A model generated the notes under the pieces. The model was not told where the DNA came from. It made no database searches and saw only the letters and a program-made list of their open reading frames with translations. Of a DNA stretch of 64,000 nucleotides, positions 2 through 62,426 are shown piece after piece. Positions within the stretch are counted from its first letter, which is position 1. Every line of letters begins with the position of its first letter. The stretch comes from Chryseosolibacter histidinae. Lineage in GTDB: Bacteria; Bacteroidota; Bacteroidia; Cytophagales; Cyclobacteriaceae. The DNA lies in assembly GCF_018598225.1 (NCBI RefSeq), contig NZ_JAHESF010000008.1, positions 186,001 to 250,000 of the forward strand, in the 5' to 3' direction. The position numbers were made by a program, and so were the translations under genes.

Positions 2-2677
2 CAGGAAAGGTCGTACGCCAATCCGCCGCATTTCCGCGGGGCGATGCGCGAGGGCGACATCCGTTCCATCACCGAAGATGCACAGGGCAATTTATGGATC
101 GGGTGTTATGGCGACGGCATCTATTCTTATTCACCTTCCACCCAAAAATTCCAGCGGCACTTCAACGATCCGCGTTCGGAAGAGCAGCTGAAGAACGATA
201 TCGTTTTTGCCGTGAAGGCAGACCGGAACGGCAACATCTGGATGGGCACGGGCGGCGGAGGCATCTGCGTTTTCAATCCGCGCAAGCGCACATTCAAAAG
301 ATATACGGAAAAAGACGGGTTGGCGAACAACACCGTTTACGCGGTGCTCACCGATCATGCGGATAATGTGTGGATGAGCAGCAACGCCGGCATTTCGAAG
401 CTCGATGTGAGCAAAAATAAATTCTTCAATTACGGCGCTTCCGACGGCTTGCAAGAGGGGCAGTTTCATCCGGGCTCGGCGCTCTTCAATGGCGTGGGCG
501 GATACATGTGCATGGGTGGCACGCTTGGCCTCAATGTTTTTTTTCCTGACCAGGTGACCGATGGCCTGAAGCAGCCCCAGATCATGCTTACAGGATTTTC
601 GCTCTTCAACAAACCTGTACACATCAACGACAGCCTCGAGGGCAACGCCATCTTAACACAGGTTATCCACCACACCGACAACATCACCCTGAAGCATGAC
701 CAGAACGTGCTCACGTTCGAATTCGTGGGCCTGAACTACACGTATCCCGAGAAAAACATTTACGCTTACAAACTGGAGAACCTCGACAACGACTGGAACT
801 TCGTGGGCAACCAGCGATCGGCCACCTACCGTTATCTGAACCCGGGCACCTATGTTTTTAAAGTGAAGGCATCGAACGTTGAAAATGAATGGGGCAATAC
901 CTTCGCCAGTGTGGCGGTGACCATCAGGCCGCCTTTCTGGATGACCCCGTTGGCGTATTTTCTTTACATGCTCACCACCTGTGCCATTGCTTATGTTATC
1001 ATTCATTTCCGCGCCAAGCAGCTCAAGCTGAGAAGGAGGCTGAAAATTGCCAAGCAGCAGCGCAAGCATGAACGGCACCTGGTGCAGCAGAAGCTCACGT
1101 TCTTTACGGAGATCTCGCACGAGTTCAAAACACCGCTCACGTTAATGATCGGCCCCCTCGAAGAGATGATGGCGAAAGAATCTGTCGAAACCGCCGCAGG
1201 CAGAAAGCTGAGAATGGTATACCGCAATGCGCACAAGCTGCTCAACCTCATCAACAAGCTGCTTGATTACCGGAAAATTGAAAATGGAAAGGTGATCCTG
1301 AAAGTAAGAGAAGACAACATCGTTTCTTTCGTGGAAGAGATCTGCGCCACGTTCAGGGAGCTGGCCAACCACAAGAACATACAGTTTCATGTTCAGGCAG
1401 ACCAGCCTGAGATCATGCTTTGGTTCGACCGCGAGAAGATCGAGATGGTGCTCAACAACATTATTTCAAACTCATTCAAGTACATCGGCCAGGGCAACGA
1501 GATCAGCGTTTACGTGACGCGGCAGGTGAACGACAAATTCCCGAAAGGCAGGGCCTGCATCAAGATCAAAGACAATGGCGTGGGCATACCTAAAAAACAC
1601 CTGGGTAATATTTTCGACTGGTTCTACAAAGGAGAGAACTACGGTGCCATGAGCTCGGGTATCGGCCTCTCGCTTGCGCGGAAGCTGGTGCACCTGCACA
1701 AGGGAGAAGTGTTTGTAGACAGCGTGGAAGGAAACGGATCTACCTTCAGCATCAAGATCCCGCTGGGGAACGAGCACTTCAGGCCCGAGGAGATCGTTGC
1801 CACGCCAGCCCTCGAACAGGACACAGCCACAGCCTTCAAAACAGATTTCCTGCTGCATGACGATCGTGAAGAAGGGCATTCCAAAAAAGGATACAAGAGC
1901 ATCTTGCTCATCGAAGACGATGAAGAGATCCGCGGATTCCTGAAAGAGTATTTTGAGAAGGAATACAAGATCTTCGAAGCCGCCAATGGAAGCGAAGCGC
2001 TTGACGTAGCCGCACAACATCACCCCGACCTGATCATCAGCGACGTGATGATGCCCGAAATGGATGGCATCGCCTTCTGCAAAGCCATTCGCAGCAGCAT
2101 GCGCACAAGCCACATTCCCCTAATATTGTTAACCGCCAAAACCAGTCTCTCCGATCACAAGGAAGGTATCGAAACAGGCGCCGACGCTTACATCACCAAA
2201 CCTTTCAGTCCGGAGATCCTGCGGTTGACGGTTCACAACCTGCTGCAATCGCGCGAGAACGTGATGCGTTTCTACCGCAACCTCTTCACCGCCGACGTTC
2301 AGCAGCCGGCCGCCAAAAATGCCAATGCCCTGGATGAAAATTTCCTGCGCACCATTTATGAGAAGCTCATCGCCAACCTCGACAAGCCGGAATTCAACAT
2401 CAATGAGCTGTGCGACGAGCTGAGCATGAGCCGTTCGCTGGTATATAAAAAAGTGAAAATGCTCACGGGCCTTTCGCCTATAGAATACATCCGCTCGCTG
2501 AGAATGCAGGAGGCTGCCAAGCTGCTCAAGACCAAACAATACAAGGTGTTTGAAGTGGTTTATATGGTGGGCTTCACTGACATGAAATACTTCAGGCGCT
2601 GTTTTACGAAAGAATTCGGCTATTCTCCTTCAGATTTTATCAAACAAACAGAAGAAGGAAAAGTCACTGGTCAGTAG
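2..2677 (+). CDS. Hybrid two-component system protein (sensor kinase + receiver + AraC HTH), 5'-truncated by the window edge
   Basis: One-piece sensor/regulator that normally senses a periplasmic oligosaccharide and activates the adjacent polysaccharide utilisation genes. The frame is open from base 2, so the apparent ATG at 44 is internal. Counting from that ATG: two-component propeller repeats (NLWIGCYGDGI, NIWMGTGGGGI, NVWMSSNAGI), a Y_Y_Y domain at about 223-280, one membrane helix at about 300-322, a HisKA domain with phosphoacceptor H359 (SHEFKTPL), a HATPase with the N box near 473 and DNGVGI near 510, a receiver with phosphoacceptor D667 (SDVMMPEMDG), and an AraC-type double HTH at about 780-866. 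The upstream part of the propeller is missing. It lies directly before susC/susD in the same orientation, typical of a PUL regulator. Family assignment is firm; the ligand is unknown. Confidence 0.95.
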   Translation, partial: QERSYANPPHFRGAMREGDIRSITEDAQGNLWIGCYGDGIYSYSPSTQKFQRHFNDPRSEEQLKNDIVFAVKADRNGNIWMGTGGGGICVFNPRKRTFKRYTEKDGLANNTVYAVLTDHADNVWMSSNAGISKLDVSKNKFFNYGASDGLQEGQFHPGSALFNGVGGYMCMGGTLGLNVFFPDQVTDGLKQPQIMLTGFSLFNKPVHINDSLEGNAILTQVIHHTDNITLKHDQNVLTFEFVGLNYTYPEKNIYAYKLENLDNDWNFVGNQRSATYRYLNPGTYVFKVKASNVENEWGNTFASVAVTIRPPFWMTPLAYFLYMLTTCAIAYVIIHFRAKQLKLRRRLKIAKQQRKHERHLVQQKLTFFTEISHEFKTPLTLMIGPLEEMMAKESVETAAGRKLRMVYRNAHKLLNLINKLLDYRKIENGKVILKVREDNIVSFVEEICATFRELANHKNIQFHVQADQPEIMLWFDREKIEMVLNNIISNSFKYIGQGNEISVYVTRQVNDKFPKGRACIKIKDNGVGIPKKHLGNIFDWFYKGENYGAMSSGIGLSLARKLVHLHKGEVFVDSVEGNGSTFSIKIPLGNEHFRPEEIVATPALEQDTATAFKTDFLLHDDREEGHSKKGYKSILLIEDDEEIRGFLKEYFEKEYKIFEAANGSEALDVAAQHHPDLIISDVMMPEMDGIAFCKAIRSSMRTSHIPLILLTAKTSLSDHKEGIETGADAYITKPFSPEILRLTVHNLLQSRENVMRFYRNLFTADVQQPAAKNANALDENFLRTIYEKLIANLDKPEFNINELCDELSMSRSLVYKKVKMLTGLSPIEYIRSLRMQEAAKLLKTKQYKVFEVVYMVGFTDMKYFRRCFTKEFGYSPSDFIKQTEEGKVTGQ

Positions 2678-2709
2678 TCTATGGTCTATGGTCCATAATC
2701 CATAGACTA
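2675..2709 (+). repeat. Hairpin/word array of the GTCTATGG class overlapping the stop codon
   Basis: TAGTCTATGG (2675-2684) is followed by its exact inverse complement CCATAGACTA (2700-2709), with an internal TATGGTCCATA. The TAG stop of the preceding gene is part of the stem. No U-run follows, so it is not a canonical terminator. It belongs to the permuted-word repeats found in many gaps of this window. Confidence 0.7.
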
Positions 2710-3057
2710 TTTGTTAGACTGGTGACATTATTACGGCTGCACCGAGTAACCGCAACTCCATCCCCCGATCAATCGAAAGACTCCCGTCGTTGGTCATGTC
2801 ATTTCAACACTTAAAAGAGTTTGATCGATTAATGTACTATTCCAGGATTGGAACTGAAACACACCGGTTAAAAAATCATGACGCCCTCAACCGGCCACCT
2901 GGCAACCGGTAACTGGCAACCATTACACAATACCTGATCTGCCATGGGTGAAGTGGCGGAACCTTTTTGTCCACCCCGACAAGTGGCTAATTCTTGCGGA
3001 AAAGCCCTTCTGCACTACATCCGTGCCCCCTTTTATAACAGTTAGCACCCCTTTCCA
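2710..3057. other. Intergenic gap before susC; includes a GGCAACCGG word array
   Basis: No credible coding region is visible. At 2891-2921 there is an array built from GGCCACCT, GGCAACCGGT and AACTGGCAACC, the same word class as at 56234-56265 (inverted) and 60241-60270. The remainder shows two partly related TGATCG-containing stretches near 2768 and 2820 that might be regulator sites, but this is weak. Confidence 0.5.
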
Positions 3058-3090
3058 GAAAACGTTTTCAATGACATTTACAAACGTTTG
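3058..3090 (+). promoter_or_regulatory. Twin palindromes in the susC promoter region (possible operator pair)
   Basis: GAAAACGTTTTC (3058-3069) and CAAACGTTTG (3081-3090) are both perfect palindromes with a central CG. Their centres are 22 bp apart, about two helical turns. The second contains AACGTTTG, one mismatch from the Bacteroidota -7 box TAnnTTTG, so a bound protein could block or position RNA polymerase. The ATG of susC follows 44 bp later. Central-CG palindromes of this kind are typical of LacI-family sites; no LacI gene is present in the window. Confidence 0.5.
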
Positions 3091-3134
3091 AGTCGCCATT
3101 ATCCCCCAGTCATTTTCAATTAAACCCAATAATT

Positions 3135-6100
3135 ATGATTAAACGTCTACCCAGAAGAATCGGACGGATCGCCATCATACCGGTGGTGGTCTTGTTGCAA
3201 TTCAGTTGCCATTTCCTGTATGCGCAGGAAAGTAAGATCAGCGGAAAGGTGCTGGCAGAGAACGGAACCGCCCTGCCGGGAGTTAACGTGATAATAAAAG
3301 GAACCTCCATTGGCACCACCACCGACGCCGATGGTTTGTTCGCGCTCAACGCCCCGAACCAGAGCGCTGTACTTGTTTTTTCTTTCATCGGTTACAAAAC
3401 CACAGAAGTGCCGGTGGGCTCGCAGTCGTCTTTCGAGATCAAGCTGTTGCCGGATGTGGAGACCCTCACTGAAGTTGTGGTGGTAGGTTATGGTGAGACC
3501 AAAAAAGAGTCGCTCACCAGCGCCATCACATCTGTGAAAGGTAAAGAGCTTGTGAAGAGCCCGCAACCCAACCTTTCAAACTCCTTTGCAGGAAGGGTTT
3601 CTGGTGTGGTGGCCAGCACAGCAACCGGCGAACCCGGCAGCGACAACGCGCGACTGCTCATCCGCGGCCAAAGCACCACGGGAGACAATTCTCCCCTTGT
3701 GGTGATCGATGGTGTTGCCAACCGGTTGGGCGGCCTCGAGCGTTTGGATCCCAACGACATCGAAAGCATCTCGGTGCTCAAGGATGCCTCCGCTGCAATT
3801 TACGGAGCACAGGCTGCCAACGGCGTGATCCTCATCACCACCAAACGCGGCTCGACATCCACAGGGCCTGTTTTCAATTTCACTTATAACCAGGGCTTCG
3901 CAAAGCCAACCCGCCTGCCCGAGATGGCAGACGCACCAACGTACGCGCGCATCCTCAACGAGATCCAGTACTATCGCAGCTCATCCGGCGGATTGAACCA
4001 GATCTATTCTGAAGAGGAGATCCAGAAATTTTCCAACGGTTCCGATCCCATCAACTATCCGAACACAGACTGGATCGACGCTGTAATGAAATCTGTTTCG
4101 TTACAAGATCAGCAGAACCTCTCCATCGCTGGCGGGGGAAGTGATGTACAGTATTTTGTTTCCCTGGGAAGAAGGCACCAGGATGGCATCTACAAGAACA
4201 CCAACCTTGAATTCGAACAATTCAACATCCGCTCCAACATCGATGTAAACCTGACGAAGAACCTGCGGATGGGCATCGACCTTTCGGGAAGGATCGAAGA
4301 CCGCGTGTTCCCCACGGAGAGCGCCGGAAGCATTTTCAGGTCAACCTTCAGAACGTATCCTGTGCTGCCCGTATATTATCCCGGCGGATTACCTGCTCCC
4401 GGCATCGAAGCGGGTCTCAATCCCGTGGTGATCGCCACATCGAAGGCAGGCTCCGACAAGCAGCCCAAAACAGTGCTCAACTCGTTGCTCACCCTCGATT
4501 ATAAGCTGCCCTTTGCACCGGGTTTGTCTGTAAAAGGTTTTTATGCGCACGACCGGATCTTCGACGCGCGCAAATTGTTCCGTACGCCCTGGACTGTTTA
4601 CACGTTGAACAGCAGCACCAATCCCGTTACGTTCGATCCCGTGCAGCGCGGACCTGTTACAGCAGAGCTGACACAACGCGAACGCAATGACCGCCTCAGC
4701 ACAGCCAACATCAGCCTCAACTATGAAAAATCGATCGGCTCTAATTTCATCAAAGCCTTTGTCGCTTACGAGCAGAATGTACAGGAGGCCGATTGGTTTG
4801 AAACTTTCAGAAGGGGATACCTCTCTCCGCTGATCCCCGAGATAGACCTTGGCGGTTCGGCTCCTGAAGAGCGGACCAACAGTGGCAACAGCGAAAGGTT
4901 CACCCGTCGTAATTACTTTGGCAGGATCTCATTCGATCATAATCAACGTTACCTTGCCGAAGTGCAGTTCCGCTACGACGGGTCATCGAAGTTCATGAAA
5001 GGCAACCAGTACGGTTTCTTCCCCAGCGCCTCCGTTGGTTGGAGGATCTCGGAAGAATCGTGGTTCGATGTTTCCGCCATCGGAAATTTGAAGCTGCGCG
5101 CGTCTTACGGATTGTTAGGTAACGACAGGATCAGGGCATTCCAATACCTGAACACCTTCAACCTGAGAAGCAGCAACTATGTGCTGGACGGTACACCTGT
5201 GCCCACATTCGGTATCCTGCAGCTCGCCAACCCTGACATTACCTGGGAAACTGCCCGCAAGCTCGACATTGGTGTAGAGACCACGTTGTTCGGCAAGCTG
5301 ACGCTCGAGTTGGATTATTTCAGCGAACGCAGAACCGATCTCTTGATCCCACGCACCGGCTCGATCCCTTATGTGTCGGGTATTGTGAACGAATACCAGA
5401 GTGGCAATCCGCTAACGCCATCACCCATCATCCCTGACGAAAATATCGGCGAGGTGAAGAACAGCGGCGTGGAAGCGCAGCTCGGCTACAACCACGATAT
5501 AGGTGATGTACACCTGACGCTGGGTGGTAATATCACTTACAACAAGAGTGAAGTTGTTTATATGGATGACTCCGATGGAATTCCTTCGTACCAGCGGCGT
5601 GAAGGGCGTCCTTTGGGTGCGCAGTTGTTCTACAAAACAATGGGCATCTTCAAAACGGTGGAAGACCTCAACGGTTATCCGCATGTGCCCGGCGCCGGCC
5701 CTGGTGACCTGATCTATGAAGACGTGAACAAAAGTGGCAGCATCACGGCAGACGACAGGGTGATGCAAAGTCTAAGCAACGTTCCGCAGATCGTGTATGG
5801 ATTCACGGCTGCCGCATCTTTCAGGAACTTCGATCTCACCATTCTGCTGCAAGGCCAGGCGCGATCAGTACAATATGTGCTCACCGAAGCCGGTGAAGTG
5901 GGTAACTTCTTCAATTCATGGGCATCTAACCGCTGGAGCCCGTCGAACCCCAACGGCACGTACCCGCGCGTGGATGTGCGCACCTCATCGAGCATCAACG
6001 GCGCGTTGTACAAGAACGATTTCTGGCTGTACAACACCTCGTTTATGAGGATCAAAAATGTGGAGCTGGGATATAACTTTTCAACGGCGGCTTTCGAGCG

Positions 6101-6254
6101 GCTGAGATTGAAAGGTGCGCGTCTCTATGTGAACGCCTTCAACCTCGCCACTTTCAGCAAGGTGAAAGACTTCGATCCGGAAGGCCAGAGCGAAAGCGGC
6201 CAGTTCTATCCGCAGCAGCAGATCTACAACGTTGGTGTAAACCTCAAATTCTGA
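3135..6254 (+). CDS. SusC/RagA-family TonB-dependent outer-membrane transporter
   Basis: Outer-membrane barrel that imports oligosaccharides together with its SusD partner, driven by TonB. The 1039-residue length is normal for the family. Visible parts: N-terminal signal region ending near AQES (about residue 30), a carboxypeptidase-regulatory-like beta domain at about 34-100 (ISGKVLAENGTALPGVNVII), the SusC signature LTEVVVVGYGETKKESL near 112-128, a plug domain with DASAAIYGAQAANGVILITT near 218-238, then a beta-barrel ending in an aromatic residue (NLKF). It overlaps nothing and is followed after only 4 bp by susD, so the two are co-transcribed. Regulation is probably by the upstream hybrid two-component protein. 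Confidence 0.96.
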   Translation: MIKRLPRRIGRIAIIPVVVLLQFSCHFLYAQESKISGKVLAENGTALPGVNVIIKGTSIGTTTDADGLFALNAPNQSAVLVFSFIGYKTTEVPVGSQSSFEIKLLPDVETLTEVVVVGYGETKKESLTSAITSVKGKELVKSPQPNLSNSFAGRVSGVVASTATGEPGSDNARLLIRGQSTTGDNSPLVVIDGVANRLGGLERLDPNDIESISVLKDASAAIYGAQAANGVILITTKRGSTSTGPVFNFTYNQGFAKPTRLPEMADAPTYARILNEIQYYRSSSGGLNQIYSEEEIQKFSNGSDPINYPNTDWIDAVMKSVSLQDQQNLSIAGGGSDVQYFVSLGRRHQDGIYKNTNLEFEQFNIRSNIDVNLTKNLRMGIDLSGRIEDRVFPTESAGSIFRSTFRTYPVLPVYYPGGLPAPGIEAGLNPVVIATSKAGSDKQPKTVLNSLLTLDYKLPFAPGLSVKGFYAHDRIFDARKLFRTPWTVYTLNSSTNPVTFDPVQRGPVTAELTQRERNDRLSTANISLNYEKSIGSNFIKAFVAYEQNVQEADWFETFRRGYLSPLIPEIDLGGSAPEERTNSGNSERFTRRNYFGRISFDHNQRYLAEVQFRYDGSSKFMKGNQYGFFPSASVGWRISEESWFDVSAIGNLKLRASYGLLGNDRIRAFQYLNTFNLRSSNYVLDGTPVPTFGILQLANPDITWETARKLDIGVETTLFGKLTLELDYFSERRTDLLIPRTGSIPYVSGIVNEYQSGNPLTPSPIIPDENIGEVKNSGVEAQLGYNHDIGDVHLTLGGNITYNKSEVVYMDDSDGIPSYQRREGRPLGAQLFYKTMGIFKTVEDLNGYPHVPGAGPGDLIYEDVNKSGSITADDRVMQSLSNVPQIVYGFTAAASFRNFDLTILLQGQARSVQYVLTEAGEVGNFFNSWASNRWSPSNPNGTYPRVDVRTSSSINGALYKNDFWLYNTSFMRIKNVELGYNFSTAAFERLRLKGARLYVNAFNLATFSKVKDFDPEGQSESGQFYPQQQIYNVGVNLKF

Positions 6255-6258
6255 ACGC

Positions 6259-7959: not shown

Positions 7960-7997
7960 TCCGCCGATTAGTTTGGGTTAATATGTGGGAAAAGTAA

Positions 7998-8028
7998 GGT
8001 GAGGGCTCCAGGAGCCTTCACCCCTTTT
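7998..8028 (+). terminator. Intrinsic terminator after susD
   Basis: GGTGAGGGCT and AGCCTTCACC form a 10-bp stem (one G-U pair) around a CCAGG loop at 7998-8022, followed by CCTTTT. It would end or attenuate the susCD transcript before the GH30 gene, giving stronger susCD than enzyme expression. Confidence 0.7.
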
Positions 8029-8147
8029 AAAATCAGCATCCGTTATCCAAAAGAATTTTTCAGCAAGATCCGCGCAATGGTTCGGCATCTCACGGGCCGG
8101 CTGCCAGGGAATGATCATTCAAATTTTCAAAAGTGTAAACCAAAGAG

Positions 8148-9713: not shown

Positions 9714-9714
9714 G

Positions 9715-9810
9715 AGGTCCACGGTCCACAGACGACAGTCCACAGACGACAGTCCACAGCCTTGTGGTGTGCCTCACCAATCGTACCTCGTATTTCGTAC
9801 CTCGTACCTT
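9715..9810. repeat. Two adjacent permuted-word arrays (GTCCACAGACGACA and TCGTACCTCG classes)
   Basis: 9715-9760 consists of repeated GGTCCACGG/GACGACAGTCCACA units. 9781-9810 repeats TCGTACCTCG and TTTCGTACC. The second class reappears in inverse complement directly after purM (62253-62286). No coding content. Confidence 0.8.
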
Positions 9811-9821
9811 CGGCTTTCGAT

Positions 9822-9855: not shown

Positions 9856-9919
9856 CATGGCTATCCCCATCGAAATTTCCTATCTTTATTACGAGACCAA
9901 CCCCTCGAAGGCAACAGCG

Positions 9920-17890: not shown

Positions 17891-18176
17891 ATGCAGAACG
17901 CAAAGGCCGCAGAGAAGGCGCAAAGACCGCAAAGATTTTTTTTAACCGCGGAGAATGCGGAGGAGACGCAGCGGCAAAGACATTTATACCTTACAGGAAA
18001 GAACCTTCGGGACTTCTGAAACCCGTCACCCTGACTGACGACCGTGTGTCGGCCTGCAGGAACGAAGTATCCCCTGATCGCTTACTGCATACTTAAGAAG
18101 TACCTCCTCCGTATGAGGGATGCTCAAAAATTCTTTGCGCCCTTTGCGCTTCATTGCGGTCTTTGCGTGAACTGCA
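17891..18176. repeat. 286-bp segment bounded by inverted GCAAAG-word arrays
   Basis: The left arm (17891-17935) begins ATGCAGAACGCAAAGGCC and continues with GCGCAAAGACCGCAAAG. The right arm (18132-18176) read on the minus strand begins ATGCAGTTCACGCAAAGACC and ends GCGCAAAGGGCGCAAAG. The two arms align almost end to end as inverted copies. A second related stretch (GCGGAGAATGCGGAGGAGACGC) follows the left arm. The interior has no credible gene. It starts directly at the stop codon of the preceding AraC gene and fills most of the gap to the HMA gene. Confidence 0.8.
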
Positions 18177-41511: not shown

Positions 41512-41519
41512 CTGCTGAG

Positions 41520-41605
41520 TACCCAGGACGGGAGTCGAACCCGTACAGCAATTACTTGCCACAGGATTTTAAGTCCTGCGTGTCTACCAATTCCACCACC
41601 CGGGC
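41520..41605 (-). tRNA. tRNA-Leu (anticodon UAA)
   Basis: 86 nt read on the minus strand. The acceptor GCCCGGG pairs with CCTGGGT (two G-U), discriminator A. D-arm GGTGGAATTGGTAGACAC. Anticodon stem CAGGA/TCCTG with loop CTTAAAA, anticodon UAA. Long variable arm (GTGGCAAGTAATTGC). T-arm CGGGTTCGACTCCCG. The CCA end is not encoded. Confidence 0.95.
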
Positions 41606-41611: not shown

Positions 41612-41671
41612 TTAGGCATTGGGCATCAGGCATTAGGAAAATGCATCATGCAGAATTACCCATTAGCCTAA
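41612..41671. repeat. GGCATTAGG-class word array between the two tRNA genes
   Basis: TTAGGCATTGGGCATCAGG followed by CATTAGG (41612-41637) is answered by ACCCATTAGCCTAA (41658-41671) in near-inverse orientation, with GCATCATGC between. It is another class of the permuted-word repeats seen across the window. Confidence 0.65.
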
Positions 41672-52497: not shown

Positions 52498-52701
52498 AGG
52501 GTGTGCTGAAGGTGCTTAGGAGTAAAGGCTAGAAGTCAGGAGCCAGGAGTCAGAAGCCAGAAGGGAACCGGCGTTGTAACATGGTACGGTGTACCAACTG
52601 AAGTCACTTTTTTGCTGTACATCGGAGGAAGAAGCTCCTTGACCGGCTCCGTCCCTCCTGACTCCTGGCTTCTGACTTCTGGCTCCTAGTCAGCACACCC
52701 T
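52498..52701. mobile_element. 204-bp element with 12-bp terminal inverted repeats and inverted word arrays (MITE-like)
   Basis: AGGGTGTGCTGA (52498-52509) and its exact inverse complement TCAGCACACCCT (52690-52701) bound the element. Inside, TAGGAG (52517-52522) pairs with CTCCTA (52683-52688), and AGTCAGGAGCC-type words (52531-52563) face CTCCTGACTCC-type words (52655-52689). The centre (52565-52654) is unique. It has no gene and could fold into a long imperfect hairpin. Type assignment (miniature inverted-repeat element) is inferred from the structure; no target-site duplication was established. Confidence 0.65.
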
Positions 52702-52816
52702 CTCCGTTCAGAATTTCCTAACCGAGATCAATACAATATTCCTTTTTACCTAACCGACATCAAGGATGGATAGGGGCCCGGGCCGGCAATTTTGTCGTAA
52801 TAACAACTCAACACCC

Positions 52817-55219
52817 ATGAAAACAAATCCTTTACTGCTGACAGGCACACTGATCATGTTCTTTTTCGCTGTTACGGCGGCGGCGCAATCCACACAAACC
52901 GTTCGCGGCCGGGTGCTGGATGAGGTCTCGCAAACACCACTCATCGGGGTGAATGTGGTTGTCATGTCGGGCCCGGGTGCTGTGCTCGGAAGCACTACCG
53001 ATGAAAGTGGCGAGTACCGCATTGAAAAAGTACCCGTGGGCAGGCAAACGCTCAAGATCAGCTATATCGGTTACGAAGATCAAACCATCCCCAACGTAAT
53101 GGTTACTGCCGGAAAAGAAGTGGTGATGAACATAACCCTTACGGAAAAGGTGAGCCAGCTCAGCGAGGTCACGGTAATCGCCGACACAAAAGAAGACAAA
53201 ACAGCCACCAACAACGACCTGGCCGTGGTGAGCGCCAGGTCTTTTAACGTTGACGACACCAAACGTTATGCAGGCGCGCTGGGTGATCCTTCGCGCATGG
53301 CAGCCAATTTCGCGGGCGTGGTAGGCGGCAATGACTCCCGCAACGACATCGTAGTGCGCGGCAATTCGCCTACCGGCATGTTGTGGCAGATGGAGGGACT
53401 GAACATTCCCAACCCCAATCACTTCGGCGCCCTGGTGGCTACGGGCGGACCGGTGAGCATCCTCAACAACAACAACATCGACAAATCCGATTTCATCACC
53501 AGCGCCTTCCCCGCACAATACGGCAATGCCACCGCAGGTGTTTTTGATCTGAAGCTTCGCGATGGCAACAATCAGAAGAACGAGTTCCTGGGCCAGATCG
53601 GCTTCAATGGTTTTGAGCTCGGCGCAGAAGGGCATTTCGGCAAAAATTCCAAAGCATCGTACATTATCAACTATCGTTATTCGACGCTGGCCGTATTTCA
53701 GACGCTGGGCATCGAGTTCGGCACCGGCTCCAACACACCGCTGTACCAGGACCTGAACTTCAAGGTGAGTCTGCCTGCCGGCAAGAATGGAAAGATCTCG
53801 ATATTCGGACTCGGCGGCGCCAGCGAGATCGACCTGCTGGGAAGTGAGGCAGACCTGGATAATGACACAGACCTGTACGGAAGCGAGAACATAGATTCTT
53901 ACCCGCGCTACCAGACGGGTGTGGCCGGTATCAGCTATGAAAAAAGTGTGTCGGAAAAAACTTTCCTGAAGCTCACGGCAGGCATCAGCGCTACCAGCGA
54001 GAATTTTTATGCCGATTCCCTGGTGAGGGATGAGACTAATGAAGTGGTGGCCAAATATCTTACCAGCGAAGCCGATTTCACCACACGGAAATATTCACTG
54101 AACTTTTACACCCGCACCAAGCTCGATACCAAGAACAGTCTTACCTCAGGATTTTACATCGACGCCATGAGCTTCGATCTGTTCAACCGCGATGCGTATG
54201 CCAACCTGAACCGCGATACGGTACGGCTGGATGTTGACGAGAATGCCACGCTCTACCAGTTCTACACCACATGGCGTCACCGGTTCACCAACCGCTTTTC
54301 GCTGAACACCGGCATCCATGGCCAATACTACTCACTGAACGAACAGATCGTGGCCGAACCGCGCGTGAGTCTTCAGTATGTGATCAACGGTTCGCATGCA
54401 CTGAGCCTGGGGTACGGCCTGCATCACCAAATGCAAAACATCACCACGTCTTTTATCCAAACTAAAACACAGGACGGTACCATGGTGCTGACGAACAAAG
54501 GCCTCGACTTTACCGCGAGCCAGCATTATGTGCTCACCTACGACTGGAATATCTCCGGCAACACCAGGCTGAAAGCCGAAGCCTATTACCAGCGCCTGAA
54601 CGATGTACCGGTTGAACGGAAACCAACTTCTTTTTCGGCCCTCAACACCGGCGCCAGCTTTGCGCCCCTGGACCAGGATAGCCTCGTGAACAGCGGCACC
54701 GGAACCAACTACGGCCTTGAGCTTACACTCGAGCGTTTTTACAGCCGCGGATTTTATTACCTGCTCACCACATCGCTGTTCGACTCACGTTACGAAGGCA
54801 GCGACGGCATAGAACGCAACACCGCTTTTAACACCAGGTTTGTATTCAATGCGCTGGCGGGCAAAGAATGGAAGCTGGGCAACAATGGAAGGTTCTTTTC
54901 ACTCAACCTGAAGCTCACCACCATCGGCGGAAAATTTCTTACACCGATAGACTTCGCGAAGTCGCAGGAATTTGGCCGCACCATTTACCGTAATAGTGAC
55001 GCCTACAGTGAGCGGCAAAGCAGTTATTTCCGCACCGACCTGCGATTGGCCTACCGCAAGGAGTATGCAAAGAGCACACTCGAGGTATCGCTCGATCTTC
55101 AGAACCTCACCAACAACAAAAACATTTTCAGCCAGAGCTATAACCCGCGCACCAACAGTATCGCTACCCAATATCAGCAGGCGTTCTTCCCTGTTCCTTA
55201 TGTGAGATTTACATTTTGA
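52817..55219 (+). CDS. TonB-dependent receptor (carboxypeptidase-regulatory-like N-terminal domain)
   Basis: 800 residues from ATG 52817. Signal peptide (LLLTGTLIMFFFAVTAAAQ). A CarboxypepD_reg-like domain covers about 26-110 (TVRGRVLDEVSQTPLIGVNVVV), then a plug (NDIVVRGNSPTGMLWQMEGLNIPNPNHFG) and a barrel ending in FPVPYVRFTF with a C-terminal Phe. The plug resembles the Bacteroidota receptors without a SusD partner. No SusD or binding lipoprotein follows. The frame opens at 52766, but the ATG at 52817 begins the signal peptide. Substrate unknown. Confidence 0.93.
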   Translation: MKTNPLLLTGTLIMFFFAVTAAAQSTQTVRGRVLDEVSQTPLIGVNVVVMSGPGAVLGSTTDESGEYRIEKVPVGRQTLKISYIGYEDQTIPNVMVTAGKEVVMNITLTEKVSQLSEVTVIADTKEDKTATNNDLAVVSARSFNVDDTKRYAGALGDPSRMAANFAGVVGGNDSRNDIVVRGNSPTGMLWQMEGLNIPNPNHFGALVATGGPVSILNNNNIDKSDFITSAFPAQYGNATAGVFDLKLRDGNNQKNEFLGQIGFNGFELGAEGHFGKNSKASYIINYRYSTLAVFQTLGIEFGTGSNTPLYQDLNFKVSLPAGKNGKISIFGLGGASEIDLLGSEADLDNDTDLYGSENIDSYPRYQTGVAGISYEKSVSEKTFLKLTAGISATSENFYADSLVRDETNEVVAKYLTSEADFTTRKYSLNFYTRTKLDTKNSLTSGFYIDAMSFDLFNRDAYANLNRDTVRLDVDENATLYQFYTTWRHRFTNRFSLNTGIHGQYYSLNEQIVAEPRVSLQYVINGSHALSLGYGLHHQMQNITTSFIQTKTQDGTMVLTNKGLDFTASQHYVLTYDWNISGNTRLKAEAYYQRLNDVPVERKPTSFSALNTGASFAPLDQDSLVNSGTGTNYGLELTLERFYSRGFYYLLTTSLFDSRYEGSDGIERNTAFNTRFVFNALAGKEWKLGNNGRFFSLNLKLTTIGGKFLTPIDFAKSQEFGRTIYRNSDAYSERQSSYFRTDLRLAYRKEYAKSTLEVSLDLQNLTNNKNIFSQSYNPRTNSIATQYQQAFFPVPYVRFTF

Positions 55220-55236
55220 TGGTTTCGGTGGGTTTC

Positions 55237-55456
55237 AGGAGTCAGAAGTCAGGAGCCAGGAGTCAGGAGAGGTTCGAGTTAAGTTGAAGTCTTGTGTACT
55301 TTTCAGGTGTAGGGATGCTCAACTGACAATTTTGCGGCTGCTATAAGAATCTGACATTAGCTATATAGGAGGCTGTATTCTCAGTTTTATGAAGCTTTCA
55401 GTCAACTCACACCTTCCCCTTCTGACTCCTGGCTTCTGGCTCCTGACTTCTAGCTT
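55237..55456. repeat. 220-bp segment bounded by inverted AGTCAGGAGCC word arrays
   Basis: AGGAGTCAGAAGTCAGGAGC with following words (55237-55269) is answered by TTCTGACTCCTGGCTTCTGG with following words (55419-55456) in inverse orientation. GAGTTAAGTTGA and the inverse of TCAGTCAACTC give a weaker inner pair. The segment begins 18 bp after the TonB receptor stop. No terminal repeat as clean as that at 52498 was found. Confidence 0.7.
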
Positions 55457-55615
55457 CTTCTTGCTTCTTTACCCGCCGCAGCTCGCGATGGAATTAGCGC
55501 GATGGAGTGAAGGCGGGGGATTTTTAGACCAACAAACGTTTGAGGTGCGGCAAACGACAGAAAACTTAATATTGTGAGGCATATCATTTGACAGGAGTTT
55601 GCCGTTAAAAGCAAC
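55457..55615. repeat. CCCGCCG-type hairpin repeat copy 1 and leader of the Crp/Fnr gene
   Basis: CCCGCCGCAGCTCGCGATGG followed by AATTAGCGCG and GTGAAGGCGGG (55471-55516) has CCCGCC and GGCGGG at its ends. Related copies lie at 56269-56299 and 56430-56477. It sits in the gap before the Crp/Fnr gene and has no coding content. Confidence 0.6.
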
Positions 55616-56212
55616 ATGTCAGCTGATGAATACACACCCCTGCGTCAGTTCATAGCCGGAGTCGTTGATGCAACGAACGAAGAATGGAAGGCGCACCGCG
55701 ATTGTCTTACGCGCAGGTTCCTCCGGAAAGGCGAATTCCTGGTCTCCGAAGGCCAGGTGGTAAACAATGTATCGTTCATCAACAAGGGATCGTTCAGGGT
55801 GTTCAAGACCATGAACGGCCAGGACCTCACCAAACATTTTTTCTTTGCGAACGAATATGCCACCGAATACATCAGCTTTCTCACGCGCAAACCTTCCGAC
55901 ATCTGTGTAAAGGCGCTGGAAGAATCCGAGCTGATCGAGCTGCACTACGATAAGGTGCAGGCATTGTATGAACAGTATCCCGTATGGCAGAAGTACGGCA
56001 GGCTGATGGCAGAACATTTGTTCATCGTGCTGGCAGAGCGCACACACCGGTTGCTCTATCATTCTCCCGAAGAGAATTATCTTCACCTCATCGAAAGCCG
56101 TCCTGATATCATCGAAAGAATTCCCCAGCAGTACATTGCATCGTATCTGGGTATTCAACCGGAGTCGCTTAGTCGGATCAGGAAACGGTTAATGGAGGTT
56201 AGGAGAGTTTGA
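55616..56212 (+). CDS. Crp/Fnr-family regulator
   Basis: 198 residues. Cyclic-nucleotide-binding-like beta roll about 15-115 (KGEFLVSEGQVVNNVSFINKGSFRVFKTMNGQDLTKHFFFANEYATEYISFLTRKPSDICVKALEESELIEL), the long C-helix (about 125-150), and a short winged-helix at the end (ERIPQQYIASYLGIQPESLSRIRKRL). The cAMP-contact residues of Crp are not conserved, and there are no Fe-S Cys residues as in Fnr, so the ligand is unknown. Flanked on both sides by word-array repeats. Confidence 0.9.
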   Translation: MSADEYTPLRQFIAGVVDATNEEWKAHRDCLTRRFLRKGEFLVSEGQVVNNVSFINKGSFRVFKTMNGQDLTKHFFFANEYATEYISFLTRKPSDICVKALEESELIELHYDKVQALYEQYPVWQKYGRLMAEHLFIVLAERTHRLLYHSPEENYLHLIESRPDIIERIPQQYIASYLGIQPESLSRIRKRLMEVRRV

Positions 56213-56483
56213 AGTTTAAGGTTTCAAGTTTCAGGTTGCCGGTTGCCAGTTGCCGGTTACCAGTTTTACCCGCCGAAGCTTTAGCGTAGGTTGGGTTGCC
56301 GGTTCAGACCCTGGTGAAACTCACTTTCCCAGCTCCGTTCCCCTAGAGTCACAACACCATCACTTGATCCACACCGCCTTCTTCTGACTCCTTGCTCCTG
56401 ACTCCTGACTTCTATTCCCAGCTCCCTTCGCCCGCCGTAGCACGCCGTGGCATTAGTGCGAGAGCAGCGAAGGAGGGTTACTC
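56213..56483. repeat. Cluster of word arrays downstream of the Crp/Fnr gene
   Basis: AAGTTTAAGGTTTCAAG words (56212-56234), GGTTGCCGGTTGCCAG words (56234-56265, inverse of the GGCAACCGG class), a CCCGCCG copy (56269-56299), TCTGACTCCTTGCTCC words (56379-56413) and another CCCGCCG copy (56430-56477). Four classes therefore share one gap between a Crp/Fnr gene and mutS. No gene was seen. Confidence 0.75.
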
Positions 56484-59090: not shown

Positions 59091-59095
59091 TGAAG

Positions 59096-59103
59096 CAAAG
59101 ATA
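59096..59103 (-). promoter_or_regulatory. -7 box of mutS, very close to the start codon
   Basis: TATCTTTG on the minus strand matches TAnnTTTG exactly and ends 5 bp before the ATG of mutS. Transcription would start at or inside the first codon, suggesting a leaderless message. The -33 box is not clear. If the box is functional, the true translation start might alternatively lie a few codons further in. Confidence 0.5.
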
Positions 59104-59202
59104 GAAAAGATAGAAAAGCATGGAGGCGACGAATGGTTTTTTTGTTAAAAATTGATGATCAGTGGGTTAGTGAGTTGCGAGCCGTTAGCGATGAGCGGAA
59201 TA

Positions 59203-59392
59203 GTAGCAGTAGGCAAATTGTGATGGCTTCGCTATCACAACAGTAGGCAAAGGATTGTGCAAGCCATCATGAGCGTTTTACTGTTGAAATTGGAACAGCG
59301 CATGTGATGCCCGTAGCCTTACTATTGCTACTGCTCCGATCGCCTGCGATCGGTCCCGATAGCTATCGGGATGCCTACTGCCTACTTTTCAG
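59203..59392. repeat. Segment with AGTAGCAGTAGGCA words and three near-perfect hairpins
   Basis: TAGTAGCAGTAGGCA (59211 on) and CAGTAGGCAAAGG face TTACTATTGCTACTGCTCC and TGCCTACTGCCTAC (59372-59385) in inverse orientation. Inside are TTGTGATGGC-TTC-GCTATCACAA (59218-59240), CCGATCGC-CT-GCGATCGG (59336-59353) and the palindrome TCCCGATAGCTATCGGGA (59354-59371). No gene. Confidence 0.75.
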
Positions 59393-60035
59393 CTACGATC
59401 ACCCACATCTTATCCCCTTTCTCCTTTGTACGATCGACAAACGGGTCTTTCTGGTGGACGATGCTGAACCCGGCTTTGGTGAGGTCTTCCAGCGCGTAGC
59501 TCATGCCCAGCTCGTGTTTGCCTTCCTGCACCGAACGCGAGAGCTTTCGGCGTTCATCCGCGATCGGTTCACAGATCACCAGCCTGCCACCTTTTTTCAG
59601 TGCCCTCTTTACGTGCTGCAGGATCTCATCGTGGTCGTCCATTTCATGATAAGTATCGAGAATGATCACGGCGTCGAGCTGCTCCTGCGGAAGCTTTGGG
59701 TTATCGTAGTCGCCTTTGACGGTCTGGATGTTGGTCAGTTTTTTGTTGGCGATATAACCGTCCAACTTCGTGAGCTTCGACTGGTCCACATCCACCGCAT
59801 ATACCTTGCCTGCGTTGTTCACTACCCTGGCCAGCTTGAAGGTCATATACCCTTCGTGACATCCAATATCGGCAACGTGGCTTCCTTCTGCGATCTTCAT
59901 CATCGAAATAAGCTCGTCTGCCCGCTGCCATTTATCGCGTGCTTCCCACGCAGGTTTTGAATAAATGTTCTTCCAGGGATTCTGGGCTGAAGCCGTGATG
60001 GTGATGGTGAAGAGGAGGATCGTGATCAGGCGCAT
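59382..60035 (-). CDS. Exported class I SAM-dependent methyltransferase
   Basis: 217 residues with an apparent signal peptide (LITILLFTITITASAQ). The Rossmann core has VADIGCHEGYMTFKLARVV (motif I), VYAVDVDQSKLTKL, QTVKGDYDNPKLP, LDAVIILDTYHEMDDHDEILQHVKRALKKGGRLVICEP. The SAM site looks intact. Export is unexpected since SAM is cytosolic; related exported proteins are common in Bacteroidota. Target unknown. On the minus strand, isolated between repeats. Confidence 0.85.
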   Translation of the reverse strand: MRLITILLFTITITASAQNPWKNIYSKPAWEARDKWQRADELISMMKIAEGSHVADIGCHEGYMTFKLARVVNNAGKVYAVDVDQSKLTKLDGYIANKKLTNIQTVKGDYDNPKLPQEQLDAVIILDTYHEMDDHDEILQHVKRALKKGGRLVICEPIADERRKLSRSVQEGKHELGMSYALEDLTKAGFSIVHQKDPFVDRTKEKGDKMWVIVAEK

Positions 60036-60322
60036 GTATTTACAACGTGGTTCCCGGTATCGAAGGTGGTGCTTTTCAGGGGGAAGAAAAAGGAGTAAGG
60101 AGTAAGAATTAAGTAGTAAGGAGTTGAGACTAGAAGTCAGGAGCCAGGAGTCAGAAGCCAGAAGAAGACGAGGTATGATCGAAGTGTCGGTGTTGGAACC
60201 GAAGAATAGAACCGGAATTGAGTTTTACAACGATCACGAACCGGCAACCGGGAACTGGCAACTGGCAACCAGCACGCCCAACTTTAAACTTCAAACTTTA
60301 AATTTTCAACTAACTTCGCCCG
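60036..60322. repeat. Gap carrying four successive word arrays
   Basis: GGAGTAAGGAGTAAGAATT words (60091-60124), TAGAAGTCAGGAGCCAGG words (60131-60164), CCGGCAACCGGGAACTGG words (60241-60270) and AACTTTAAACTTCAAAC words (60280-60310). The gap between the two head-to-head genes holds no ORF of interest. A TAACTTCG just before the ATG at 60323 might be its -7 box. Confidence 0.8.
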
Positions 60323-60853
60323 ATGAAAAAACTGCAACTAGAAGAGCTGGGGCGGATCTCGGTGGATGAGTTCAAGGGGTCTGATAAGCTCCCGGTTTGT
60401 ATTGTGCTTGACAACGTGCGCAGTTTGCACAATGTGGGTTCGGCTTTTCGCACGGCGGATGCTTTCCGGCTCGAAAAAATATTCCTCACAGGCATTACCG
60501 GCACACCGCCGCATCGCGAGATAGAGAAGTCTGCCCTCGGCGCTACCAGATCTGTGGATTGGGAATATGCTGAATCGACAGGCGCACTTCTGAAAACAAT
60601 GAAAGAGAAAGATTACACGATCGTGATCATTGAACAGACCACGGAAAGTAAACCGCTGCAGCAGTTCGATCCCGAGCCCGGCAAAAAGTACTGTCTTGTT
60701 TTTGGCAACGAAGTGAATGGCGTGAGCGAGGAGGCACTTCCAAACGCAGATCTGGCACTGGAAGTTCCTCAACATGGAACAAAACATTCACTTAATGTTT
60801 CAGTATGTCTCGGCATCATTACCTGGGAATTTTTTCGAAAACTTCAGCTGTGA
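60323..60853 (+). CDS. SpoU/TrmH-family RNA 2'-O-methyltransferase
   Basis: 176 residues of the SPOUT fold (knotted). Three family motifs: VLDNVRSLHNVGSAFRTADAF (motif 1, N and R for RNA/SAM), YCLVFGNEVNGVSEEAL (motif 2) and HGTKHSLNVSVCLGIITWEF (motif 3). No N-terminal RNA-binding domain, so closer to TrmL/TrmH-like tRNA or rRNA enzymes of Bacteroidota than to RlmB. The exact nucleotide target is unknown. It is followed by a long-loop terminator. Confidence 0.92.
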   Translation: MKKLQLEELGRISVDEFKGSDKLPVCIVLDNVRSLHNVGSAFRTADAFRLEKIFLTGITGTPPHREIEKSALGATRSVDWEYAESTGALLKTMKEKDYTIVIIEQTTESKPLQQFDPEPGKKYCLVFGNEVNGVSEEALPNADLALEVPQHGTKHSLNVSVCLGIITWEFFRKLQL

Positions 60854-60913
60854 CGTTGAAACCTTTTTAGCTGCGAACAGTATTTAAACATAAGGAAAAC
60901 AATAGTTATATAC

Positions 60914-60976
60914 CCCGTCAGGCAAAGCGTGTTCGTACTGTGATGGAAGGAGCAGTTGTCTGACGGGTCTTTTTTT
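60914..60976 (+). terminator. Long-loop terminator of the SpoU methyltransferase gene
   Basis: CCCGTCAGGCAA (60914-60925) pairs with TTGTCTGACGGG (60956-60967), including one G-U pair, and is followed by C and TTTTTTT. The loop is about 30 bases, longer than usual, so a small structured RNA is an alternative reading. Confidence 0.7.
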
Positions 60977-60983
60977 GTCCAAT

Positions 60984-61018
60984 AAGGGATGACATCTTTT
61001 GAAAAGATGTCATCCCTT
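60984..61018. terminator. 17-bp perfect palindromic hairpin
   Basis: AAGGGATGACATCTTTT (60984-61000) and AAAAGATGTCATCCCTT (61002-61018) are exact inverse complements with a single-base centre. T-rich on both strands, so it could work as a bidirectional terminator; only plus-strand genes are nearby. It lies about 70 bp before purM. Confidence 0.75.
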
Positions 61019-61048
61019 TTAATTTTAAAATTTGCAACTTTGCAGAGA

Positions 61049-61068
61049 CATCCCGGAGTTACGGGATG
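61049..61068 (+). promoter_or_regulatory. 5'-leader hairpin of purM
   Basis: CATCCCG (61049-61055) pairs with CGGGATG (61062-61068) through a GAGTTA loop, 20 bp before the GTG start of purM and just after CAACTTTG (61035-61042), a near match to the -7 box. The hairpin would lie at the very 5' end of the message and could affect stability or initiation. Confidence 0.45.
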
Positions 61069-61087
61069 GTAAAAAGTATTTCATTCA

Positions 61088-62254
61088 GTGTCTGACCGTT
61101 ACAACCAGCGCGGGGTTTCTGCCTCCAAAGAAGATGTTCACCAGGCCATCAGCAAACTGGACAAGGGCTTATATCCCAAAGCTTTCTGCAAGATCGTGCC
61201 CGATTATTTGGGCAATGACGAGGAATATTGCGCTGTGATGCACGCAGATGGCGCCGGTACAAAATCGTCGCTGGCGTATATCTACTGGAAAGAAACGGGA
61301 GATCTCTCGGTATGGAAAGGTATTGCACAGGACGCCATCGTTATGAACATTGACGACCTGTTGTGCGTAGGCGCCACTGAAAACATTCTGCTCTCATCCA
61401 CCATCGGCAGGAACAAAAATCTCATCCCCGGTGAAGTGATCGCCGCCATCATCAACGGCACCGAAGAAGTGCTGGCCATGCTGCGCAAACACGGTCTCAA
61501 CATCATCAGCACCGGTGGCGAGACCGCAGACCTCGGCGACCTGGTGCGCACCATCGTGGTAGACAGCACCGTGGTATGCCGCATGAAACGCAACCATGTG
61601 ATCGACAACAGCAGGATCAAAGCCGGCAATGTTATCGTGGGCTTATCGTCGTTCGGACAAGCCGCCTACGAAGACGAATACAACGGAGGCATGGGCAGCA
61701 ATGGCCTTACTTCCGCGCGGCACGATGTGTTCAACAACGAATATGCTTCGAAATATCCCGAGACCTACGATAGGGATGTTCCCGCCAAGCTCATCTATTC
61801 CGGGTCGTACAAAGTGACCGATAAATCCAATGGCACGGATGTGAATGTAGGCAAGCTCGTATTATCACCTACCCGCACCTACGCACCCATTATCGTTGAG
61901 GTGCTTACGCGATATCGCAGGCTCATCCACGGCATGGTGCACTGCAGCGGCGGCGCGCAAACCAAGGTGCTTCACTTCATCGATAACCTGCACGTGATCA
62001 AAGACAATCTGTTCGATGTGCCACCTTTATTCCGGATCATCCGCGAGCAGAGCGGCACCGAATGGAAAGAAATGTACAAGGTCTTCAACATGGGCCACCG
62101 CATGGAGCTCTATGTAGACGAAGAGCTGGCCCCCGAGATCATCCGCATCTCCGAAAATTTTGGCGTAGAAGCCCGCATCATCGGTAGAGTAGAACCTTCA
62201 ACCCAAAAGAAAGTTACAATCAAGAGTGAGTTCGGAGAGTTCGTCTATTCGTAA
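61088..62254 (+). CDS. purM: Phosphoribosylformylglycinamidine cyclo-ligase (AIR synthetase)
   Basis: Fifth step of purine synthesis: ATP-dependent closure of FGAM to AIR. 388 residues. AIRS N-domain with HADGAGTKSSLAYIYWK, DAIVMNIDDLLCVGA and GETADLGDLV (substrate and metal site); C-domain with GMVHCSGGAQTKVL and FNMGHRMELYVDEELAPEI. Starts with GTG (MSDRYNQRGVSASKEDVH), which fits relatives; no in-frame ATG precedes it. Longer than E. coli PurM (345), as usual for this branch of Bacteroidota. It stands alone, not in a pur operon. Confidence 0.95.
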   Translation: MSDRYNQRGVSASKEDVHQAISKLDKGLYPKAFCKIVPDYLGNDEEYCAVMHADGAGTKSSLAYIYWKETGDLSVWKGIAQDAIVMNIDDLLCVGATENILLSSTIGRNKNLIPGEVIAAIINGTEEVLAMLRKHGLNIISTGGETADLGDLVRTIVVDSTVVCRMKRNHVIDNSRIKAGNVIVGLSSFGQAAYEDEYNGGMGSNGLTSARHDVFNNEYASKYPETYDRDVPAKLIYSGSYKVTDKSNGTDVNVGKLVLSPTRTYAPIIVEVLTRYRRLIHGMVHCSGGAQTKVLHFIDNLHVIKDNLFDVPPLFRIIREQSGTEWKEMYKVFNMGHRMELYVDEELAPEIIRISENFGVEARIIGRVEPSTQKKVTIKSEFGEFVYS

Positions 62255-62426
62255 GTACGAAGTACGATTTACGAGGTACGATTTGATCTCCTATAGAAGG
62301 TAATGCTTCGTGTATGCACACCGTTTCCCCAAACGGTAGGCGTTCTCCTTGCTTCTTAATTCTTACTCCTTACTACTTTTCATACACTCCTCTTCTGGCT
62401 CCTGACTCCTTGCTTCTAACTTCTGA
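62253..62426. repeat. Three word arrays after purM
   Basis: AAGTACGAAGTACGATTTAC words (62253-62286) start at the stop codon of purM; TGCTTCTTAATTCTTACTCC words (62350-62380) and TTCTGGCTCCTGACTCC words (62390-62426) follow. The last two are inverse versions of the arrays at 60091-60164. No gene. Confidence 0.8.

Follow-up and report, generated by a model that had tools for sequence, protein, structure and literature searches.

Degenerate heptad arrays between bacterial genes as probable arms of elements built around S23-type PF05635 proteins

A 64,000-nucleotide stretch of the Chryseosolibacter histidinae genome (hereafter the window, G000:C111:186001-250000, where G000 denotes the 8.04 Mb source genome in 122 contigs) carries arrays of degenerate seven-base words, mostly between genes. 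Analyses of this and other bacterial genomes revealed that such arrays frame many genes for small S23-type proteins (23S-rRNA-intervening-sequence proteins; PF05635, TIGR02436). The association of heptad arms with PF05635 genes is practically certain, and calculation shows the parent form to be an arm, a PF05635 gene and an inverted arm, with one heptad word per gene. We propose, with a probability of roughly 0.6, that the arrays constitute the arms of elements centred on these proteins. The link is not visible from the window itself: the nearest such gene was found outside it, at C111:101763-102062.

Seven PF05635 matches were identified in G000, six of which are framed by one class of arms each, as seen by array detection or, for class K, by eye. 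The framing arms belong to class A for the gene in C111, class G in C59, class K in C30 (missed by the detector), class C in C56 (with an extra inner arm), class D in C47 and class M in C27. The seventh gene, in C122, is truncated at its 5' end and has a class H arm on one side only. The seven genes correspond to seven different classes. The class C and D proteins are 63% identical, and their words are GTCCAC and GTCCAT. Arm-spacer-arm elements devoid of a gene carry the same words as the arms that frame PF05635 genes. As for insertion sequences and miniature inverted-repeat transposable elements (MITEs), the inverted ends that flank the parent gene are thus also those of the gene-less copies for six of the seven PF05635 genes. 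The encoded proteins are no transposase nucleases, however; their matches are to TIGR02436/PF05635 four-helix-bundle and related uncharacterised models. Overall, 24 of 870 interior genes have one class on both flanks, and two of these 24 code for four-helix-bundle proteins. No REPtron-like neighbour common to all classes was seen.

Six of the G000 PF05635 proteins match TIGR02436, 'four helix bundle protein', and three of these six also match Avd, a protein of diversity-generating retroelements (DGRs), below its cut-off. The class M protein matches the Protein Data Bank entries 2GSC (XCC0516, E 1.8e-21) and 2RLD (E 4e-5), with five chains each. XCC0516 is described as a toroidal homopentamer in the sections of PMC4990558 consulted, and PF05635 and Avd are homologous (PMC10053308).

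Framing by heptads extends to other genomes. Loci were tested by script, best PF05635 matches first, so that they represent a subset of all such genes, and inverted arms had to match at no fewer than 12 of 14 bases. Such arms were found at 35 of 56 loci in a first batch, against 3 of 224 shifted control positions (4 of 60 loci were too short), and at 11 of 21 loci in a second, against 0 of 84 (5 of 26 too short). Taken together, word-matched inverted period-7 arms are present at 46 of 77 PF05635 loci and 3 of 308 control positions. The same test at periods 5, 6, 8, 9, 10 and 11 yielded 2, 0, 4, 4, 2 and 0 loci, respectively. By origin, arms were found at 14 of 29 loci in relatives of G000, two G000 loci included, and at 32 of 48 loci in genomes reached through the class A word, a route biased towards heptads.

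The class A word itself occurs across phyla, in at least 118 stretches of the genome collection compared with about 0.5 expected by simple arithmetic. Of 65 genomes to which class A words were the only route, 59 contain PF05635 (46 of 48, then 13 of 17 new ones); these 65 distinct genomes are those behind 70 of the 80 class A loci listed. For comparison, PF05635 is present in 76 of 369 Gammaproteobacteria, a group of different taxonomic make-up, and in 0 of 14 control genomes. Across 18 genomes, the number of PF05635 genes correlates weakly with array density (rho 0.50, p 0.034, with samples mostly of 20-60 kb). G448:C1, a gammaproteobacterial genome of 1.5 Mb, has 11 weak PF05635 matches, seven of them equal in score, perhaps through recent multiplication.

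If the arrays belong to PF05635 elements, a PF05635 gene is expected between copies of the GGGAATC repeats described earlier (PMC4692102). Sixteen larger genomes were taken from the 76 gammaproteobacterial genomes with PF05635. One of them, G490, contains 64 GGGAATC doublets, with one mismatch allowed, and the other 15 contain 0 to 5. The sole PF05635 match of G490 (C14:68006-68197), a partial one covering positions 1-64, lies between doublets at 67976-67989 (+) and 68409-68422 (-). The former ends 16 bases before the match and the latter starts 212 bp after it; we estimate the chance of both at about 2e-6. The framing prediction thus held in G490.

Word similarity grows with protein identity, from 0.40 below 20% identity to 0.56 from 50% (Mantel rho 0.31, 0 of 2,000 permutations, for the 43 loci with word and protein among 76 examined). 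This co-variation is also expected from shared descent; either way, gene and word travel together. The protein likely recognises its own word, as suggested by sequence comparison. One could instead regard both the gene and its arms as passengers of another trans-acting enzyme that recognises the arms, given that PF05635 has no known catalytic domain and that classes without a PF05635 gene persist. We consider this improbable, since the words co-vary with the PF05635 protein itself and the only two candidate enzymes that were tried fail.

The first candidate was the REP-associated tyrosine transposase (RAYT; Y1, PF01797) of repetitive extragenic palindromes (REP) and bacterial interspersed mosaic elements (BIME). 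No two-sided heptad framing was seen among the 30 Y1 loci read. The best Y1 match of G000, the RAYT-like locus L249 (G000:C36:40157-40486), is flanked by CCCTTTCAGGG repeats and no heptads; by eye, L249 and these repeats look like an ordinary REP system inside G000. A weak Y1 match of the same genome, L265, lies about 500 bp from a class I element, a Y1 locus of the sister genome G002 (L243) has a one-sided heptad array about 200 bp away, and a few others have AT-rich or one-sided arrays. The second candidate was a reverse transcriptase, as in DGRs or other retroelements. No PF00078 (RVT_1) match was found in G000, the most array-rich of 18 sampled genomes, and thus movement cannot rest on such an enzyme there.

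The arrays had been noticed in a sequence-only reading of the window, which described at least eight classes of permuted words, all between genes. Degenerate arrays are indeed present within a few bases of where it placed them. Seven of its classes are period-7 arrays, named A, B, C/D, F, G, I and J here; the eighth, GCAAAGACCGC at 17891/18132, forms an inverted pair with a period other than 7. In a first sample of 447,665 bp of G000, with stretches partly chosen for class A matches, we detected 156 period-7 segments and none in an order-2 shuffle. Periods 5, 6, 8, 9, 10 and 11 gave 0, 14, 1, 8, 3 and 1 segments, and all periods other than 7 in the range 5 to 13 gave 0 to 14 each. A larger sample of 1,247,665 bp, whose first stretches had been chosen for class A and in which gaps were defined by our own gene calls, contains 361 arrays, 324 of them assignable to one of twelve word classes. 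Among these are A (AGYCAGR), B (AGTAAGR), C and D (GTCSACR and GTCBATR), F (GTTRCCR), G (GTTTMAR), I (KTACGAR) and J (GGCATYA), as well as the rare K and M, with 2 and 6 arrays. The arrays have the hallmark of heptameric simple repeats, degenerate period-7 tandem words between genes: 312 of the 324 classed arrays lie inside gaps. One array of the window, at 2662-2710, overlaps the end of the preceding gene. From the 156 classed arrays in 800,000 bp not chosen for class A, we estimate about 1,570 in the genome. In the whole of G000, AGYCAGRAGYCAGRAG occurs 185+143 times (backward control, 0).

The elements of G000 are composed of a left arm of about four heptads, a spacer of class-dependent length (mostly 78-92 for F, around 70 for D, 1-49 for H) and a right arm of about four inverted heptads. 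The '+' sense of each class was set after left arms were seen to read RGTnnnn or similar, so that one sign per class is fitted. In 184 gaps, the order for the eight core classes is +- in 81, +-- in 4, ++- in 3 and +-+- in 2 cases; the remaining gaps have + (35), - (38), ++ (3) or -- (5), and 13 have other classes only. Opposite-sense neighbours are arranged '+-' in 92 cases, 73 of the same class and 19 mixed, and '-+' in 2, both between two tandem elements. This fixed orientation, the four-unit length and the abutment on stop codons described below are absent from the sequence-only reading.

The units obey a grammar. Four-unit arms make up 43 of 51 in class C, 25 of 29 in D, 24 of 30 in I and 27 of 41 in A; class F has 26 of 50 arms of four units and 22 of three, and class H merely 10 of 27 of four. 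Exactly one odd unit is found in 37 of 43 four-unit arms of class C (variance 0.14 compared with 0.75 binomial). Of 43 odd units, 40 occupy the second or third position of the arm, and odd units are under-dispersed in classes F and D as well. Class A alternates T and C (same at lag 1, 0.23 versus 0.41; at lag 2, 0.69). The seventh base is A or G near equally often in classes A, C, D, F and H, and less so in G and I. Combinatorial assembly, as first proposed, is therefore too loose a description: most positions follow the class grammar, and it is mainly every seventh base that is free. In addition, compared in hairpin register, the arms of one element are less alike than arms given other partners of their class (0.789 versus 0.822 +- 0.006, z -5.3, 63 pairs), in the same direction in all seven listed classes with three pairs or more (A, C, D, F, G, H and I, class B not being among those listed). 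No signal was obtained when the register was shifted by one or two units. The mean length of the longest perfect stem run is 7.7 versus 9.5.

Together, the grammar and the anti-matched arms argue that the arrays do not result from slippage. Heptamer repeats are over-represented in bacteria, according to the sections of PMC4692102 consulted, which would suit an origin as microsatellites by ordinary slippage, or the G-quadruplex elements put forward for GGGAATC. Slippage is contradicted by the prevalence of four-unit arms, the single odd unit of class C arms, the alternation in class A and the fixed orientation, in agreement with the sequence-only reading. The four-unit preference is also found in words without GGG (C, D and I), where G-quadruplexes do not account for it. 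We regard both as next to impossible.

Selection at the RNA level, for 3'-end hairpins acting as terminators or mRNA protectors, would account for elements lying directly behind stops and in convergent gaps, and whole elements fold well (mean z -4.5, 70 elements). Nevertheless, G-U and A-C mismatches between the arms in tandem gaps are about equal (73 and 69), and thus the arm signal is not one of RNA pairing. Arms avoid perfect pairing, mixed-word pairs cannot pair yet keep their orientation, and a canonical terminator, seen by eye, precedes the G002 element at trmH. Anti-matched arms without wobble bias are not what a stem selected for transcript pairing, as in an intrinsic terminator, would show, and we find this explanation very improbable. 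A structured spacer was also rejected, as the folding of 70 spacers (mean z -0.43) is near that of 80 control pieces (-0.21). Our interpretation is that the arms come together as DNA and that perfect palindromes, like pure repeats, are lost.

Arrays are enriched in convergent gaps. At a minimum gap length of 100 bp, arrays are present in 49 of the 77 convergent gaps, in 81 of 276 between tandem genes and in 25 of 127 between divergent ones (convergent versus the rest, p 6e-10); at a minimum of 60 bp, the numbers are 63 of 104, 87 of 347 and 25 of 135. This enrichment is strong, yet it is not the main support for PF05635 elements. Where a single '+' and a single '-' arm were parsed in a gap, the median distance of the outer arm ends is 4 bp to gene 3' ends, with 83 of 95 no more than 20 bp away, and 76 bp to 5' ends (n 53); elements in tandem gaps are nearer the upstream stop in 41 of 43 cases. 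A count of every G000 array against its two neighbouring genes places 158 of 354 3' sides within 20 bp, and likewise 23 of 226 5' sides. An inner-flank motif (GGTGTG and the like) was set aside as a common feature, being enriched (16 versus 1.7 expected) but carried by few arms.

Such anchoring at stop codons and the convergent enrichment, together with a grammar under constraint and the co-variation of protein and word, would also fit a PF05635 protein that is a DNA- or RNA-binding regulator or a nucleoid protein. In that case, the arms would be sites under selection, and the protein's gene would be framed for autoregulation, with no movement. This is rather unlikely in view of three observations detailed below: a cassette at metH that is missing in six relatives, gene ends at which sister species carry different words, and the near absence of arrays from G001.

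The class A pattern has 0 matches in the sister G002, which is rich in other heptad words, inverted pairs included. At purM, G000 and G002 carry different words, each at the stop codon, that of G002 starting 2 bp past it. Among 49 orthologous gaps of the two genomes (the longer one of 60 bp or more), arrays are found in G000 only in 6, in both in 3, in G002 only in 9 and in neither in 31, and the words differ in at least two of the three shared gaps. No orthologous gaps were found between G000 and G001, which has one array in 112 kb though it harbours six PF05635 genes.

The clearest case of presence and absence is metH, as the class D PF05635 gene of G000 sits between its two halves. These overlap by a few bases in G001 and G002, overlap or are at most about 50 bp apart in G003, G009 and G018, and apparently form one frame in G012; the gap is longer in G017. 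No arms were seen by eye in any of these genomes. The first half in G000 reads KYKPR, followed by MVHGPLSMVHGS and a stop out of the left arm, whereas both sisters continue KYKPREV... and end in KYKPREVVLENV (G002) or KYKPREVAVEHA (G001). Most simply, the cassette was gained in G000 with the loss of a few codons, a view based on this single locus and the six relatives without a cassette. PF05635 genes are also found about 2.2 kb from the matched part of the second metH half in three relatives (G002:C4:200392-200700, G017:C6:336431-336739 and G018:C31:274439-274744), and the metH end may thus be a repeated landing place. With this one clear empty site, the sporadic distribution and the seven different cassettes, the balance tips towards the elements being mobile.

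Several observations weigh against elements built around PF05635 proteins. No arms are detectable at 31 of the 77 PF05635 loci tested, and the relatives of G000, which were not picked for heptads, have them at just 14 of 29. The gammaproteobacterial baseline is taxonomically mismatched, as noted above, and four genomes (G001, G017, G027 and G036) have 5-9 PF05635 genes, yet 0 or 1 period-7 array in 40-112 kb. In G000, no PF05635 gene was found for classes B, F, I, J and L; a disrupted one with the class F word is present in the sister G001 (L336). A simple two-ended element does not predict the mixing of different words seen in 19 of the 92 pairs. Abutment is weaker in G002, with 23 of 68 3' sides and 9 of 38 5' sides within 20 bp. 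The C-termini of arm-abutted genes are not altered relative to G002 (18 versus 75, p 0.58), so that truncation by insertion was rejected as the cause of abutment and the exact contact with stop codons is unexplained, as are the classes without a gene and the mixed-word pairs. No near-identical distant copies were found for 68 spacers searched against 1.25 Mb; the matches obtained were local duplicates, embedded arms, one palindromic repeat and a sequence of 19-51 bp common to two class C spacers and other places. Finally, we infer both binding and movement from sequence.

If PF05635 elements are nonetheless at the origin of the arrays, the protein would read its own heptad word. With about 4.5 units in an arm and five subunits in a ring, each subunit could conceivably correspond to one heptad, but this is doubtful. 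The protein might act on single-stranded DNA while the element is exposed and let the element and its gene-less copies spread with host functions, like a transposase for MITEs or a RAYT for REPs. Copies would persist at places where they are nearly harmless, chiefly right after stop codons. The loss of perfect palindromes would leave surviving arms mismatched at about every seventh pair, and a joint change of gene and word would account for the turnover of words among relatives.

The window illustrates these arrangements. A mixed pair consists of a class D arm in inward sense (2662-2710, +), overlapping the stop of the preceding gene, and a class F arm on the right (2890-2920, -); a second one has a class C arm on the left (9716-9759, +) and a class I arm on the right (9780-9809, -). 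Two class A elements follow, each listed as separate arrays in the sequence-only reading but representing one inverted element (52534/52657 and 55240/55421). The first has a four-unit left arm (52528-52563, +), a 91-bp spacer (52564-52654) and an inverted right arm (52655-52687, -); the second has its left arm (55235-55269, +) just past the stop at 55219 and its right arm at 55419-55469 (-). In the convergent gap next to mutS, a class G arm running into class F units on the left (56206-56265, +), at the stop of the gene at 55616-56212, is paired with a class A right arm on the mutS side (56381-56413, -). The gap 60036-60322 holds four classes, the maximum noted by that reading, namely B then A on the left (60090-60164, +), and F (60238-60274, -) and G (60280-60311, -) on the right. 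Behind purM, a class I left arm begins at the stop codon (62253-62284, +), with class B (62345-62378, -) and class A (62392-62432, -) right arms.

Other repeats were also observed in the window. A class J array (41612-41652, +) adjoins a tRNA-Leu gene (41519-41605), and resembling words are found in the sister G002 (L062:5249-5278). The gap upstream of mutS has two short heptad runs (AGTAGGCA / GCCTACT; 59202-59220 and 59373-59389) that are sub-threshold for the detector; this word also frames a PF05635 gene in G002 (L324). The segments 17891-17935 and 18131-18167 form an inverted pair of CGCAAAGRCCGC words about 200 bp apart, with a period near 9-10, and a similar CGCGGAG/CTCCGCG pair was seen by eye in a sister locus, L061, near 15035 and 15190. 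Lastly, the segment 43574-43652 belongs to a palindromic repeat, GTTGTTGGTGTTCTTCACCAACAAC, that is dispersed and has at least a dozen matches in the 1.25 Mb sample.

Heptameric repeats of bacteria have long been noted without a maker, and S23/four-helix-bundle proteins are widespread and of unknown function; a tie between the two makes both testable. The framing of PF05635 genes in varied bacteria, each with its own word, suggests an unrecognised kind of DNA element that scatters words through genomes. If the elements move, they seemingly do so without an RVT_1-family reverse transcriptase and without a transposase of their own. The tie also suggests that the Avd protein of DGRs shares ancestry with heptad-reading proteins, and it offers a common origin for rRNA intervening sequences (IVS) and intergenic repeats. 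Tentatively, and at somewhat less than even odds, we put forward a pan-bacterial family of mobile elements without transposase or reverse transcriptase. Their sole gene would encode an Avd/S23-type ring protein reading four to five heptads per end, one per subunit, and every protein lineage would have a word to itself. This one family would unite the 23S rRNA IVS with the heptameric 'microsatellites' known from cyanobacteria, Xanthomonas, Geobacter and Bacteroidota.

Among known systems, REP/BIME with RAYT also combine a gene with cognate, dispersed intergenic inverted repeats whose classes turn over between species. RAYT proteins have an HUH nuclease fold, and REP repeats have another anatomy than heptad arms. 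The sequence-only reading knew of no family that explains the arrays. In a literature search that covered few subscription journals, we found no published link of PF05635 to heptad repeats in general and no described heptameric intergenic repeat tied genome-wide to a gene family. Heptameric intergenic repeats as such have already been described (PMC4692102, PMC4679880, PMC2700814, PMC4990558), and the comparisons below relate to the sections of these papers that were consulted. The repeats of Rehm 2015, GGGAATC in Xanthomonas and GGGGA(C/T)T in Nostoc, ascribed to G-quadruplexes, share with ours the heptads, the four-unit preference, the location close behind stop codons, the rarity in divergent gaps and the convergent inverted pairs, with 70 and 75 cases in two Xanthomonas (PMC4692102). 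They differ in having one word and, in those sections, no linked gene, whereas here many words, most without G tracts, are tied to PF05635. The TAACTGA heptamers of Beggiatoaceae, cyanobacteria and Bacteroidetes (MacGregor 2015) are likewise intergenic and patchy across phyla. In a Beggiatoaceae genome, however, they form direct arrays mostly upstream of start codons, for which a translational regulator was proposed, and those sections link no PF05635-like family to them (PMC4679880). The multicopy elements of Geobacter metallireducens were seen as putative regulator (IHF/HU) or regulatory RNA sites, with no gene linked in the sections concerned. Nevertheless, they have five tandem heptads whose consensus, MTYCTGA, is the class A word on the other strand, they are drawn as a looped pair, and a further family has four tandem heptads (PMC2700814). 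A parallel in gene content is the Coxiella IVS. It lies within the 23S rRNA and is cut by RNase III, unlike the elements studied here, which lie between protein genes, and those sections describe neither gene-less dispersed copies nor word classes. Nonetheless, it harbours an S23p open reading frame inside terminal inverted repeats, as found here, with two or three tandem heptamers depending on the strain and a degenerate one before the reading frame; its terminal repeats form a 28-bp stem, and past mobility was proposed (PMC4990558). Thus, the Coxiella IVS has much the same anatomy at another site.

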